From: a virus
Direction: 5' to 3' (one strand)
Virus record (IMG/VR): IMGVR_UViG_3300034022_000315
Coordinates: 1-37,717 of that record
Length of the DNA: 37,717 nt
The notes below the pieces were generated by a model. It was not told the DNA's origin. It ran no database searches and was given only the letters and a program-made list of their open reading frames with translations. The translations under genes were made by a program, and so were the position numbers. Each line of letters opens with the position of its first letter. The first letter of the stretch is position 1. Of the stretch, positions 1-37,717 are shown in pieces.

Positions 1-157
1 ATATTATCTTCTGGAATATCATTATTATAAGTATTGATATGGCATAACACATGACCATTTGAACCACTAACGTGAGTTTTGGTGATGTTAAGGCCATTAA
101 GATAATATCGTATATCAGGTTTTTTAGGTGCTGCGCTTAGTGCTAGTCTTAAGTCTT
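1..157. repeat. Left copy of the terminal overlap (circular contig)
   Basis: These bases recur at 37561-37717 in the same orientation with one difference, G at 31 against A at 37591. A gene reads straight through the joint, so this is most simply the overlap of a circular or circularly permuted genome of 37,560 bp. A genuine short terminal repeat is possible but would cut a gene in half. Confidence 0.9.
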
Positions 158-167
158 TAATTTTCAT
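1..167 (-). CDS. DnaN-like sliding clamp fragment protein, N-terminal part (gene crosses contig ends)
   Basis: This is the 5' part of a 181-residue gene; the rest lies at 37182-37717. ATG at 167 follows an AAGAGA ribosome site. Residues 18-25 read DIRYYLNG, matching the DVRYYLNG signature that opens domain II of the bacterial DNA polymerase III beta clamp, and 36-40 (SNGHV) sit where DnaN has TDGHR. DnaN is a ring of two subunits with three domains each that tethers the polymerase to DNA; this protein keeps domain II and part of domain III (see the right-hand part). It is co-directional with and 12 bp downstream of the 81-residue gene. The two copies of the overlap differ in codon 46: Thr here, Ile on the right. 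Homology is seen directly; a clamp function is inference. Confidence 0.85.
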   Translation of the reverse strand, partial: MKIKDLRLALSAAPKKPDIRYYLNGLNITKTHVSGSNGHVLCHINTYNNDIPEDN

Positions 168-179
168 TTTAGTTTCTCT

Positions 180-425
180 TTAGTTCATTACAGAGTGTTT
201 AAAAGTGAAGTAGTAGCCATTGTCGTCACTACCGTAACCCATGTTATCTATATCAACCTGCAAGTCATGTTTAGCTACTAACGCTTTGACTGCTTGAAAA
301 TGGCATACTTCATAACTTAACTCATAAGGATATGGAATAGTGACGCTAAATTTATTCATTGACGCTTTTATGCGTGATCCTCTGGAATTAGTTGGCCCGA
401 TATATTTTGTTTTGATTACGTTCAT
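180..425 (-). CDS. Small conserved phage protein, unknown function
   Basis: This is an 81-residue soluble protein with ATG at 425 and an AAGG ribosome site about 10 bases upstream. The N-terminal stretch TKYIGPTNSRGSRIKA resembles a motif I know from small uncharacterised phage proteins; no catalytic motif is visible. The C-terminus is rich in Gly, Asp and Tyr (GYGSDDNGYYFTF). It sits between the membrane micro-peptide and the clamp-like gene in the same leftward operon, 12 bp before the clamp start, so it is presumably expressed with the early or replication set. I cannot assign a function. Confidence 0.75.
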   Translation of the reverse strand: MNVIKTKYIGPTNSRGSRIKASMNKFSVTIPYPYELSYEVCHFQAVKALVAKHDLQVDIDNMGYGSDDNGYYFTFKHSVMN

Positions 426-27041: not shown

Positions 27042-27163
27042 TGCCTTGTCCAGTTCAAGTAGGCTTTACACGGAGTGCTTCCAAAACCTTTAATCTCATA
27101 AGGCCCAATGCACAGCCACATATTACCTACACGTTTAATTCTAGGTTTAATGTTCATATTCAT
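27032..27163 (-). CDS. Small phage protein of unknown function (43 residues)
   Basis: ATG at 27163 (or 27157) to TAA at 27032-27034. The product reads RIKRVGNMWLCIGPYEIKGF then STPCKAYLNWTRQWF. The pattern RIKRVG-x-MW-x-C-x-G, a glycine turn, then a short helix with AY-x2-W recurs in small phage proteins; I take it as a real, conserved gene. Function is unknown; two Cys might bind metal or be incidental. It overlaps both neighbours (17 bases with the one before, 10 with the helicase). Confidence 0.6.
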   Translation of the reverse strand: MNMNIKPRIKRVGNMWLCIGPYEIKGFGSTPCKAYLNWTRQWF

Positions 27164-27344
27164 GCGCGTTGCGCCAGTCTATAAATAAGGTACATTCAAG
27201 TTCTTTTATTTCTTTCTTTGCGTCCATGCGCCACATAAAGTCCTTAGTATCTATCTCGATAGTTAGATAACGAGCGCAGTCTTGTTTTTTTTCGCAGTTA
27301 CTTCCAAGACAACGGGCGTTTTCATTTGGTAATGGATATTTCAT
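27147..27344 (-). CDS. Small cysteine-rich protein (paralogue of 28558-28761)
   Basis: This 65-residue protein has RCLGSNCEKKQDCARYLTIE (Cys12-x4-Cys17-x5-Cys23) followed by DTKDFMWRMDAKKEIKELEC (fourth Cys). Four cysteines suggest a small metal site, perhaps a zinc ribbon. The protein at 28558-28761 shares the pattern CLGSNC-x-KK-x2-C-x-RYL-x-IE-x-DTKDF, so the two come from a duplication within this operon. Start ATG 27344 has GGAG 8 bases upstream, inside the codons of the preceding gene; the overlap is 23 bases. Function unknown. Confidence 0.65.
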   Translation of the reverse strand: MKYPLPNENARCLGSNCEKKQDCARYLTIEIDTKDFMWRMDAKKEIKELECTLFIDWRNAHEYEH

Positions 27345-27501
27345 TATTTACTCCGTGCATCTTTTCTGCAAACTTAACCCCAGCCCAGAAGCTTTCAGCG
27401 TTAATTGCATCTTCATTATCTCTAAAGCCTTGAGAGATTTCTTCACGAGTTAAACCTTCTCGTAATTCTTCTCGTAAATCTTCTCGTAAATCTTTACTCA
27501 T
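27322..27501 (-). CDS. Small charged protein with LREE repeats, cassette family
   Basis: This 59-residue protein is read from ATG 27501, which overlaps the previous stop (ATGA) with GGAGG in the previous gene's last codons. It starts MSKDLREDLREELREGL, encoded by a 12-base direct repeat near GATTTACGAGAA. It ends in FWAGVKFAEKMHGVNNE, the same (W/F)AEK-x-HG element as the neighbouring genes 27498-27878 and 27871-28239. The 19-residue frame at 28761-28820 is a shortened version of this gene. Function unknown; it appears to be a product of repeat-driven shuffling. Confidence 0.6.
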   Translation of the reverse strand: MSKDLREDLREELREGLTREEISQGFRDNEDAINAESFWAGVKFAEKMHGVNNEISITK

Positions 27502-27878
27502 TCCCCACCTCCAATACCGTGTTCTTTTTCTGCCCACTTAACCCCATCTTTAAACGCTTCTCTTGTGACATTTAGCATTGATTGATTGCCAACACTTATT
27601 TGTTGCGGTGTTAAAGGCTCACGTTTTGGCGGTGCTGCGTAAAGTGGTGAGGTGTATATCTTAGTGCCAACTGGTAGTGCTTCTAATTTTTTTGCGTCCT
27701 CAAAAGATACTCTGAATGATTGAAATTGTGGTGTTTCTAACTTTGTTGCCACGGGTTGGTCTTGTTCAGGTTGGGCGAGGAGTTCTTGGATTTCTTTGTA
27801 CAGTGTATGACCAATAAACCAATCCCCGTCATCATCTTCAACCATAGCTCTTTTCAGTAACTCCCTTTCTTTACTCAT
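27498..27878 (-). CDS. Cassette-family small protein (RELL...PEQ...LYAAP...AEKxHG)
   Basis: This 126-residue protein is read from ATG 27878 (AAGGAG 8 bases upstream) rather than the ATG two codons before. Order of elements: MSKERELLKR (1-10), ELLAQPEQDQPVA (about 34-46), SPLYAAPPKREPLTPQQI (about 79-96), NQSMLNVTREAFKDGVKWAE (about 100-119), then KEHGIGGGE. The last codons contain GGAGGTG, the ribosome site of the next gene. It is clearly paralogous to 27871-28239. Proteins with an LYAAPP segment are common uncharacterised phage products; I cannot assign a role. Confidence 0.65.
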   Translation of the reverse strand: MSKERELLKRAMVEDDDGDWFIGHTLYKEIQELLAQPEQDQPVATKLETPQFQSFRVSFEDAKKLEALPVGTKIYTSPLYAAPPKREPLTPQQISVGNQSMLNVTREAFKDGVKWAEKEHGIGGGE

Positions 27879-28239
27879 TATCAAAGCTCCTTATACCGTG
27901 TGCTTTTTCTGCAAACTTAACGCCTTTCCTAAACGCCAATCTAGTCACCTCTAATAATGATTGATTAGCCAGACATATAAAATACTCACTCAAAGGCTTA
28001 CGTTTTTGTGGTGCGGCGTATAAAGGTCTTAAGTTAAATGGTTGCGTTGACTCGCCTTTAAATGGTTTTTCACTCCCACAATATGCTTGTGTTGACTCAA
28101 GGTCATTCTCGTACCACTCATACATCCAAGCCACAGGCTCTTGCTCAGGTTGGTCGAGGAGTTCTTTGATTTCATCAGCAAGCTCTCCTTCCCACATATA
28201 ATCTAGTATTCTCTGCAACAACTCTCTTTCTTTACTCAT
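27871..28239 (-). CDS. Cassette-family small protein, paralogue of its downstream neighbour
   Basis: This 122-residue protein is read from ATG 28239, coupled by ATGA to the previous gene with GGAGGTG upstream. It has MSKERELLQR (1-10), ELLDQPEQEPVAWMYEWYEN (about 27-46), RPLYAAPQKRKPL (about 81-93), NQSLLEVTRLAFRKGVKFAE (about 102-121 region), then KAHGIRSFDNE. It is similar to the 27498-27878 product at both ends, with a different middle (AYCGSEKPFKGESTQPFNL). The C-terminus lacks the GGGE ending but the next gene has its own AAGGAG. Function unknown. Confidence 0.65.
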   Translation of the reverse strand: MSKERELLQRILDYMWEGELADEIKELLDQPEQEPVAWMYEWYENDLESTQAYCGSEKPFKGESTQPFNLRPLYAAPQKRKPLSEYFICLANQSLLEVTRLAFRKGVKFAEKAHGIRSFDNE

Positions 28240-28568
28240 TCCCCACCTCCAATGCCGTGTGCTTTTTCTACGCTTCTTATCCATCTAATGACGTATCTGA
28301 CTTGATGATCGTCCATATTTTCAACAATCCCTTCTTTATCAAGAGCATATATAACATCTTCTGTTAATGGTTTGGGTGGTGCAAACTCATTGACCCCTTG
28401 TCTAAACCCTTTCCCATACCATTCAATCTTTGTTTCTGCTAAAAGAGGCTCTTGATCTTGCTCAGGTTCGGCAAGACACTCTTTTATATCATTGAACAAA
28501 CTGACCACATCTTCTTCTGTTTTCAGTTCAGTCATAAACCTTTTAAGCAACTCTCTTTCAATAGTCAT
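28236..28568 (-). CDS. Cassette-family small protein with divergent centre
   Basis: This 110-residue protein is read from ATG 28568 with AGGGATG about 10 bases upstream. It begins MTIERELLKRFM, has ECLAEPEQDQEPLL (about 30-43), APPKPLTEDV, and ends VEKAHGIGGGE, but its centre (EDVIYALDKEGIVENMDDHQ, then VRYVIRWIRS) is not shared with the other family members. The final codons hold the GGAGGTG ribosome site of the following gene. It overlaps the previous gene by 11 bases. Function unknown; mosaic make-up suggests recombination between cassettes. Confidence 0.62.
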   Translation of the reverse strand: MTIERELLKRFMTELKTEEDVVSLFNDIKECLAEPEQDQEPLLAETKIEWYGKGFRQGVNEFAPPKPLTEDVIYALDKEGIVENMDDHQVRYVIRWIRSVEKAHGIGGGE

Positions 28569-28761
28569 AAAAATTAACATCCCTAAAATCTATAAAAAAA
28601 CTACAATCCATTTCTTTTAATTCTTTCATTGCATCCATGTGAAAAAAGAAATCTTTTGTATCTACCTCAATGCTTAAGTATCTGGAGCAGTTTTCTTTTT
28701 TGTCGCAGTTGCTACCTAAGCAACGTGCTGTGTCGTCAGACAGTGGGCGTGTCATTTTCAT
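28558..28761 (-). CDS. Small cysteine-rich protein (paralogue of 27147-27344)
   Basis: This 67-residue protein starts at ATG 28761 with GGAGG 6 bases upstream, in the end of the 19-residue frame. It has RCLGSNCDKKENCSRYLSIE and DTKDFFFHMDAMKELKEMDC, the same four Cys as the paralogue. The pair (short LRED protein, then Cys protein) occurs twice in this operon, here and at 27501-27147, so a two-gene unit was copied. Function unknown; a small zinc-binding fold is plausible. Confidence 0.65.
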   Translation of the reverse strand: MKMTRPLSDDTARCLGSNCDKKENCSRYLSIEVDTKDFFFHMDAMKELKEMDCSFFIDFRDVNFYDY

Positions 28762-36809: not shown

Positions 36810-36968
36810 CTAAGGTGTATCGTTAAAATGTTTAGTTAAAAGGTATTGTACTAACTTACTTTTATTTTTCGTATCTTTTAACCGCTGCACTTGCCATCTT
36901 TTTAGGCTGAAAGTTGCAAGTATGTTTTTTTCATCATCTGGTATTGATGGCCTACCTGGTAACTTCAT
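36810..36968 (-). CDS. Ribbon-helix-helix type DNA-binding regulator (52 residues)
   Basis: ATG 36968 overlaps the previous stop by ATGA; TAG is at 36810-36812. The product MKLPGRPSIPDDEKNILATF then SLKRWQVQRLKDTKNKSKLV and QYLLTKHFNDTP fits the Arc/CopG pattern: a short beta strand (ILATFSL), helix A (KRWQVQRLKD), a turn with NKS, helix B (KLVQYLLTKHF). Such proteins dimerise and bind short palindromes, so the octamers at 638-1307 are a candidate target. It is the last gene of the leftward operon. The fold is a reading of the pattern; the operator link is inference. Confidence 0.6.
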   Translation of the reverse strand: MKLPGRPSIPDDEKNILATFSLKRWQVQRLKDTKNKSKLVQYLLTKHFNDTP

Positions 36969-37177
36969 CTTAAGCACTCAGTTAAAAAGGTTAGATAATC
37001 TTTTACTGATAACGCCATGTTACTTGAATACCTAACATTATCGATTGATAATATTTGAACCCATGTATTAAAAGCTTTATAAGATATTTTTAATTCTTCA
37101 TCTCTAAAATATACCCACTTTTCTTTATTCATTTTTCGAAGCTTGTTTAAATGATTAATTAATTCTTGTTTGTTCAT
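36965..37177 (-). CDS. Small protein of unknown function (70 residues)
   Basis: ATG 37177 is preferred, with AGGTG 10 bases upstream inside the end of the clamp-like gene; a longer start at 37222 lies deep in that gene. The product MNKQELINHLNKLRKMNKEK then WVYFRDEELKISYKAFNTWV and NMALSVKDYLTFLTECLR is charged and helical, with no clear motif. It sits 4 bases after the clamp-like stop and overlaps the regulator gene by ATGA, so the three are translated together. Function unknown. Confidence 0.6.
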   Translation of the reverse strand: MNKQELINHLNKLRKMNKEKWVYFRDEELKISYKAFNTWVQILSIDNVRYSSNMALSVKDYLTFLTECLR

Positions 37178-37181
37178 AATC

Positions 37182-37717
37182 TTAGCACCTACAAGGCATA
37201 ATGACATATATAACCTCATCACTAGGCATCATATAGCCAGCCAACTCACAACTATATAAACGTTTAGGCGTGGTATTACCAAAATACTTACAAAGTGCAT
37301 CATTGGCAAGGGCAACATATGACCAGTTAAATTGATGCTGTATAGCGTTTAAATTTTTATCATGGTCATTTAACTTTATCGGATCAATTATCTTATTAAA
37401 GCTTGGATACTTATGGTCAATAGGTGTGAACACTTCTAGTTCAGTATCAGAAATAGCTATCTCGTAACGGCCATTAATTAAAAATATACCTACGTCAATA
37501 AGGTCATGTTTTGTCCCAACTTTTTTTAATAGCGCTTTTATTGTTTCGATTGGAACGATAATATTATCTTCTGGAATATCATTATTATAAATATTGATAT
37601 GGCATAACACATGACCATTTGAACCACTAACGTGAGTTTTGGTGATGTTAAGGCCATTAAGATAATATCGTATATCAGGTTTTTTAGGTGCTGCGCTTAG
37701 TGCTAGTCTTAAGTCTT
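37182..37717 (-). CDS. DnaN-like sliding clamp fragment protein, main part (5' end truncated by the contig end)
   Basis: This is the continuation of the gene starting at 167; here the frame is open to the contig end, ten bases short of the ATG. Across the whole 181 residues: DIRYYLNG (18-25), SNGHV (36-40), IIVP then IKALLKKV (56-70), IDHKYPSF (103-110), FNWSYV (133-138) and the terminal YVIMPCRC (174-181). E. coli DnaN has, in the same order, DVRYYLNG, TDGHR, VIVP, VDGRFPDY, FNVSYV and the final YVVMPMRL. So it keeps domain II and the last half of domain III; domain I and the first half of III are missing (DnaN is 366 residues). YVVMPMRL lines the pocket that binds polymerases. Ring formation with so few domains is unproven. 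Confidence 0.85.
   Translation of the reverse strand, partial: DLRLALSAAPKKPDIRYYLNGLNITKTHVSGSNGHVLCHINIYNNDIPEDNIIVPIETIKALLKKVGTKHDLIDVGIFLINGRYEIAISDTELEVFTPIDHKYPSFNKIIDPIKLNDHDKNLNAIQHQFNWSYVALANDALCKYFGNTTPKRLYSCELAGYMMPSDEVIYVIMPCRC
37561..37717. repeat. Right copy of the terminal overlap
   Basis: It matches 1-157 except A at 37591 (G at 31). The difference changes codon 46 of the clamp-like gene (Ile here, Thr on the left), indicating two variants in the source population or a base error. Confidence 0.9.

Follow-up and report, generated by a model that had tools for sequence, protein, structure and literature searches.

An open reading frame that runs across the joined ends of a phage contig encodes a homologue of the bacterial clamp DnaN, confirmed here by profile and structure comparisons, that consists of domain II and the second half of domain III. 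The pocket that binds clamp-binding motifs (CBMs) is the preferentially conserved part of this protein, which we call the mini-clamp, and both ring-closing faces of the clamp are missing from it. We propose, with about even confidence, that it would be a ring-less pocket mimic that captures host clamp-binding proteins, as a decoy or as an adaptor. The window, by which we mean the whole stretch of DNA analysed, is IMG/VR record IMGVR_UViG_3300034022_000315, positions 1 to 37,717 (37,717 nucleotides).

Results

The mini-clamp gene across the contig ends

The window has a 157-bp terminal overlap, in which positions 1-157 repeat 37561-37717 with one mismatch. This single-base difference, at 31/37591, gives Thr or Ile at the same codon and suggests two population variants or an assembly end effect. 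When the ends were joined, a single ORF of 181 amino acids was obtained whichever overlap variant was used, on the minus strand, with its ATG at 167 and its stop at 37182. The main part of the gene (37182..37717, minus strand), identified by the ORF, the profile matches and the structure, holds residues 4-181 and the stop codon; the 5′ end (1..167, minus strand) holds the ATG and residues 1-4 (158-167), after which comes the 157-bp overlap present at both ends. On the minus strand the start context reads AAGAG...ATG, the position of the start is the same in homologues, and the intact homologues have the N-terminus MK(L/I)xDLRLAL in common.

The gene was unbroken in the nine IMG/VR loci that we fetched first (68-83% identity) and later in 50 loci, the homologues with an intact gene being 50-83% identical overall. 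Since the homologues carry it uninterrupted, the joining of the contig ends is correct and an assembly artefact at the junction is ruled out. An earlier note, made from the sequence alone, had read a 181-residue product across the ends, and both the overlap and the intact homologues bear it out.

Upstream of the mini-clamp lies an 81-aa ORF that belongs to phrog_3199 (180..425, minus strand); its stop is 12 bases before the mini-clamp start, and it holds this place in three of the 24 relatives checked. The 55-aa ORF found downstream in the ORF list and in relatives (36810..36977, minus strand) usually accompanies the mini-clamp, even where the PolA/primase module is missing or different (L017, L031 and L038), and the two proteins possibly form a functional pair. 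Elsewhere, at 27147-28761, the window contains a repeated cassette of tandem paralogous small ORFs, with four MSKERELLxR... proteins and two MKYPLPNENARCLGSNC / MTRPLSDDTARCLGSNC proteins.

Homology to DnaN and domain anatomy

The DnaN signatures that the earlier note had listed (DIRYYLNG, SNGHV, IIVP, IDHKYP, FNWSYV and YVIMPCRC) are all present and in DnaN order, and the profile search against DnaN domains that it had named as a check gave matches to PF02767, TIGR00663 and E. coli beta. As a single query, the window protein matched TIGR00663 (E 4.4e-4), the phrog_947 'processivity factor' (E 1.3e-4), the beta clamp of PDB 8xla (E 1.9e-6) and PF02767 (E 0.0056, a match below Pfam's cut-off). 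A profile of 38 family members found E. coli beta by hmmsearch at E 1e-22, with the match split into two collinear blocks (138-264 and 316-366), and hhalign of the family against DnaN gave 99.3% probability and an E-value of 1e-20. PF02767 was matched by 32/38 members.

The two-block match also agrees with the anatomy that had been suggested from the sequence, domain II plus the second half of domain III only. The first half of domain III (beta 265-315) is missing and replaced by a short spacer, which between P242 and FN measures 16-24 aa in the family versus 76 in E. coli; the single outlier, L060, was judged by eye to be a false regular-expression match and was left out of this range. Domain I is also missing, and the mini-clamp is about 180 aa long compared with 366 in DnaN. 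We considered, and rejected, that the clamp is split and that the phage encodes domain I at another site, as domain I (PF00712) was absent from the family-bearing records tested (22 and 18, in overlapping sets). According to the alignment with E. coli DnaN, the first half of domain II, with the DIRYYLNG and SNGHV pocket motifs, is encoded at 37574..37717; the second half of domain II (the IIVP helix and the basic KALLKK), together with IDHKYP and the start of the spacer, at 37368..37573; and the end of the spacer with the second half of domain III (the FNWSYV helix and the YVIMPCRC strand) at 37182..37367. All three segments are on the minus strand and their limits are approximate.

A weakly supported hhalign extension would assign the tail to the first half of domain III, but the FNxxY and VIMPxR motifs favour the second half. 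The member from E. coli phage Bas78 matches PF02768 only at positions 71-121 of 121, which is the second half of that profile, and the structural alignments described below end at residue 366; we therefore assign the tail to the second half of domain III.

The AlphaFold2 model of the window protein had a pLDDT of 88.6 and a pTM of 0.85, and that of a divergent member (L058) had a pLDDT of 88.4. The comparison of a predicted monomer with DnaN, also proposed in the earlier note, found the clamp fold: VIA-align placed the window model on Acinetobacter baumannii DnaN with Z 14.2 (161 residues, rmsd 3.1), and on E. coli beta with Z 12-13.7, where model residues 1-177 lie on beta 138-366 with 161-164 residues aligned. 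The L058 model aligned with DnaN at Z 17.6 (165 residues, rmsd 2.5) and spans beta about 126-366. Both models superpose on DnaN as a single unit, passing over about 65-75 residues of domain III, and because they do so over these spans the third half-domain is predicted to have the same packing on domain II as in DnaN.

A widespread family under a misleading label

The earlier note had presented the protein as a trait of one small phage, which does not hold, as it belongs to a widespread catalogued family present in hundreds of phage records. The window protein matched phrog_3007 over its full length (E 3e-19, residues 2-177 on profile positions 10-186 of 190), as did 38/38 members, and searches of named phages with three family queries returned 99, 224 and 76 records under differing E-value limits. 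Bcep781 gp15, the protein of Vibrio phage X29, Dhillonvirus EP23 p08 and TheodorHerzl gp07 are members of the same family, in which the window protein is a divergent one. In one bacterial genome (G082, at L228:4382-5035) a mini-clamp homologue of about 215 aa stands beside the genome's own full-length DnaN, probably in a prophage.

The public label of phrog_3007 is 'RusA-like Holliday junction resolvase', a name that has also spread as a product name through RefSeq phage records, for example NC_004333.2 (gp15) and NC_016566.1 (EP23p08). These names are all that speaks for a resolvase, a reading that we consider extremely improbable and have rejected. None of the 38 members matched the RusA Pfam family PF05866. 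Bcep781 carries both a mini-clamp (gp15) and a genuine RusA (gp22, PF05866 E 1e-16), and gp22 showed no profile similarity to the mini-clamp family, with an hhalign probability of 0.1% against the value near certainty obtained for DnaN. Some depositors had noticed the DnaN likeness, naming Bcep781 gp15 a 'DNA Pol III b subunit fragment' and the X29 protein 'similar to DNA clamp'. In the literature searched we found no analysis of the architecture or function of the phrog_3007 family.

As a truncated homologue, the mini-clamp might be taken for a decaying, functionless remnant of a phage DnaN, but this is very unlikely, given that the same architecture is found in 38/38 members with identities down to <30% and that dN/dS lies at 0.09-0.24 between the window and seven relatives and at 0.05-0.24 across comparisons. 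Such purifying selection indicates that the function of the mini-clamp matters.

Ring closure

From the contacts in the clamp, where domain II meets IIIb at the pocket and IIIa meets Ib′ at the dimer interface, the half-domains can be deduced to alternate b-a around the ring. The model of the mini-clamp matches domain II and IIIb of DnaN and has too few residues for two full clamp domains; in alternative VIA alignments it lies on beta 13-239 with about 65 residues skipped, and IIIb stands where IIb is. With two b halves and one a half (b-a-b), a native-type homo-ring should be unable to close, and a beta-type homo-ring of the mini-clamp looks geometrically excluded. Closure would call for b-b contacts of a new kind or for a heterologous partner. 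The claim that the protein must form a different ring is thus unsupported. We regard the mini-clamp, which probably derives from a bacterial (or phage) DnaN, as falling outside the sliding clamps proper, a class that ring closure defines.

These results bear on the possibility that the mini-clamp is a true processivity clamp that tethers a polymerase, its protomers of one and a half domains being assembled into a ring by contacts of a new kind between half-domains or together with host DnaN. The DnaN homology and fold are in its favour, and four protomers of 1.5 domains would make six domains. Against it stand the half-domain count, the absence of both halves of the beta dimer interface, and the behaviour of a monomeric beta variant, which still binds DNA and neither tethers Pol III processively nor supports processive synthesis (PMC11139829). 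Taking into account also the loss of R197/K198 and the gene exchange described below, we consider this explanation unlikely. The working form of the mini-clamp is most likely the monomer, and if it does assemble, probably not into a ring of the beta kind.

The pocket is kept and the dimer interface is lost

In E. coli beta, subsite I of the CBM pocket comprises R152, L155, T172, G174, H175, R176, L177, P242, R246, V247, V360 and M362, subsite II comprises H175, N320, Y323, V344, M362, P363, M364 and R365, and the dimer interface sets I78/F106 against I272/L273 (PMC11139829). All of the pocket positions fall in segments that the mini-clamp retains and all of the interface positions in segments that it has lost; almost the entire pocket remains. 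In the alignment, DIRYYLNG covers E. coli R152, Y154 and L155, and SNGHV covers T172, G174 and H175. IDHKYP is the pocket element around P242-V247, the FNWSYV helix corresponds to N320 and Y323, and the C-terminal strand YVIMPCRC to V360-R365.

Because pocket retention might merely mirror where conserved residues lie, we compared equally constrained sites, taking those with a conservation of 80% or more across 20 non-redundant DnaN sequences and examining them in 16 non-redundant mini-clamps. The DnaN control set was phylum-wide; a genome contig scan with DnaN had returned only enterobacterial clamps. The mini-clamps agreed with DnaN at 77% of pocket sites versus 31% of the others (Mann-Whitney p = 6e-5). 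R152, L155, G174, P242 and R365 were present in 16/16 mini-clamps and M362 and P363 in 15/16, and the pocket-edge residues R176, M364 and V344 varied. Part of this conservation may serve the fold; the CBM pocket is nevertheless the preferentially conserved part of the mini-clamp. The earlier note was right about the retained C-terminal pocket strands, and right to give partner binding the greatest interest.

A more basic helix face

The three channel-type helices carry an average net charge of +4.0 in mini-clamps compared with +1.2 in DnaN (p = 1.4e-5). E140 is replaced by K/R in 14/16 mini-clamps and lysines are gained at 148/149, 201, 206 and 329, and the universal DnaN channel residues R197/K198 are not kept, K198 being D/E in 15/16. 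An acidic residue at 140 with lysine at 198 is a tendency in DnaN, and mini-clamps combine K/R at 140 with D/E at 198; this looks like a charge-swapped pair between two domain II helices that marks the mini-clamps as a distinct clade.

The channel of beta is lined by helices (PMC11139829) and these are more basic in the mini-clamps, so a DNA-facing role is possible and the basic helix face may contact DNA. For a processivity clamp these data cut both ways, since the face is more basic than that of DnaN but R197/K198 are lost.

The mini-clamp is not tied to a phage polymerase

A PolA match was found in 6/17 named phages, and neither PolB nor Pol III alpha was found in the 17 examined; the mini-clamp gene is thus also present in phages in which no polymerase was detected. 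Compared with the window, the primase, PolA and exonuclease of L028 are 96-98% identical (dS 0.30-0.43) and its mini-clamp is 69% identical (dS 1.11). In L020 the mini-clamp is 74% identical (dS 0.71), against 97-98% for the primase, the exonuclease and nt9528 and 89% for PolA. L017 is without a window-type PolA and primase, yet its mini-clamp is 79% identical (dS 0.77). The mini-clamp gene moves between phages on its own, separately from those for PolA and primase. Coupling to a phage polymerase was rejected on the grounds of this distribution of polymerase families and of the absence of phrog_17 from L017-type records, which also weighs against a processivity clamp.

Other genomes show varied surroundings. 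The gene adjoins a DNA polymerase gene in BcepC6B and in Xanthomonas phage PhiXhv-5, an arrangement that favours a processivity clamp and counts against a mimic directed at host partners. It lies near SSB, methylase or primase genes in X29 and IME279, and it is a lone opposite-strand gene in the head/tail module of Bcep781, TheodorHerzl, EP23, Shewanella phage 1/41 and SE1.

A phage partner with a canonical CBM was likewise rejected: in 14 phage proteomes we found 10 CBM-like motifs versus about 13 expected from shuffles, which is no excess, and there is none in the PolA or the primase of the window. QLSLFG, a strong CBM look-alike, occurs in the portals of mini-clamp phages (residue 390 in Acinetobacter phage ZC3 and residue 443 of Bcep781 gp17), and may reflect chance or portal homology.

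The mini-clamp could also be a non-ring accessory factor of phage replication or repair, with its basic helices on DNA and a phage protein held in the pocket through a non-canonical motif. The helix charge and the replication-module neighbours in the window, BcepC6B, PhiXhv-5, X29 and IME279 agree with such a role, but the phage proteins have no CBM excess, the gene moves independently of polymerase and primase, and in other phages it stands alone among structural genes. We regard this explanation as improbable, much as we do the processivity clamp.

Discussion

The mini-clamp keeps the part of beta that grips CBMs and drops both faces that close the ring. The division between retained and discarded parts coincides with that between the two functions known for beta, which supports the reading of the protein as a ring-less pocket mimic. 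Its pocket would bind the CBMs of host partners such as Pol III alpha, the clamp-loader subunit delta, Hda, Pol IV, MutS/MutL and similar proteins. Host CBM proteins are the likely partners, since the CBM pocket is conserved, phage proteins show no excess of CBMs and there is no fixed phage polymerase. As a decoy, the mini-clamp would titrate these partners from host beta, with the result that host replication or clamp loading would be inhibited, or RIDA or repair disturbed; as an adaptor, it would bring them to phage DNA, perhaps touched by the basic helix face. Taken separately, the decoy is a rather doubtful proposition and the adaptor a somewhat more doubtful one, which leaves the decoy slightly ahead. 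The strengthened basic helices, which a protein decoy would not need, count against a pure decoy.

The affinity of delta for beta is about 50 times higher when beta is monomeric than when it is dimeric (PMC11139829). Given this preference, host delta is an attractive target that a ring-less pocket could trap. A point against this reading is that the 5-residue loop of beta that delta contacts presumably falls in the lost half of domain III. Deleting that loop costs beta only about 5-fold or less (PMC11139829).

Several known systems help to place the mini-clamp. It shares with DnaN, the Pol III beta subunit of E. coli and A. baumannii, domain II, the second half of domain III, the predicted fold and the residues of the CBM pocket, and unlike DnaN it is without domain I, the first half of domain III, the dimer interface and R197/K198. 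The full-length DnaN proteins of Rhizobium phage RR1-A and Microcystis phage Mae-JY28 are also phage-borne, but they have all three domains and 370-375 aa. E. coli beta* is a UV-inducible short DnaN that arises from an internal start, without domain I and with the pocket kept; it is a host-encoded isoform that retains all of domain III, whereas the mini-clamp is phage-encoded and retains the second half. The PCNA-type clamps, among them the phage-encoded T4 gp45, resemble the mini-clamp in having a clamp fold smaller than DnaN and differ from it in having two full domains per protomer, which close as trimers, against one and a half.

Phage N4 gp8 acts on delta. N4 gp8 and Twort gp168, the latter seen bound to beta (PDB 7evp), are unrelated folds that block the clamp or its loader, whereas the mini-clamp would imitate the clamp itself, and the outcome shared with both would be phage interference with the host clamp or clamp loader. 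Waterfoul gp48, a phage sliding-clamp subunit toxic to Mycobacterium smegmatis, is a distant lead only. We did not find it stated in the literature searched that both ring-closing faces are missing from this family, that its pocket is constrained or that the gene is exchanged independently of the polymerase.

Stated at its broadest, our proposal is that a widespread class of phage proteins mimics the peptide pocket of the host clamp alone and captures delta, Pol III alpha, Hda and Pol IV, so that host replication would be shut off or redirected. We advance this only tentatively, and the same caution applies to the part of it in which clamp mimicry would be exchanged among phages like other host-takeover genes. 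Should the mini-clamp be a pocket-only mimic, it would represent a natural minimal clamp-binding module and a new route by which phages seize host replication proteins, and it would offer a tool or a lead for blocking the CBM pocket interactions at which griselimycin and similar antibiotics are aimed. Hundreds of phage records, including those of E. coli phages in the BASEL collection, are at present wrongly labelled as RusA-like resolvase or misleadingly as DNA polymerase III beta subunit, and even if the protein were an adaptor or an odd clamp, the corrected annotation alters how the replication modules of these phages are read.
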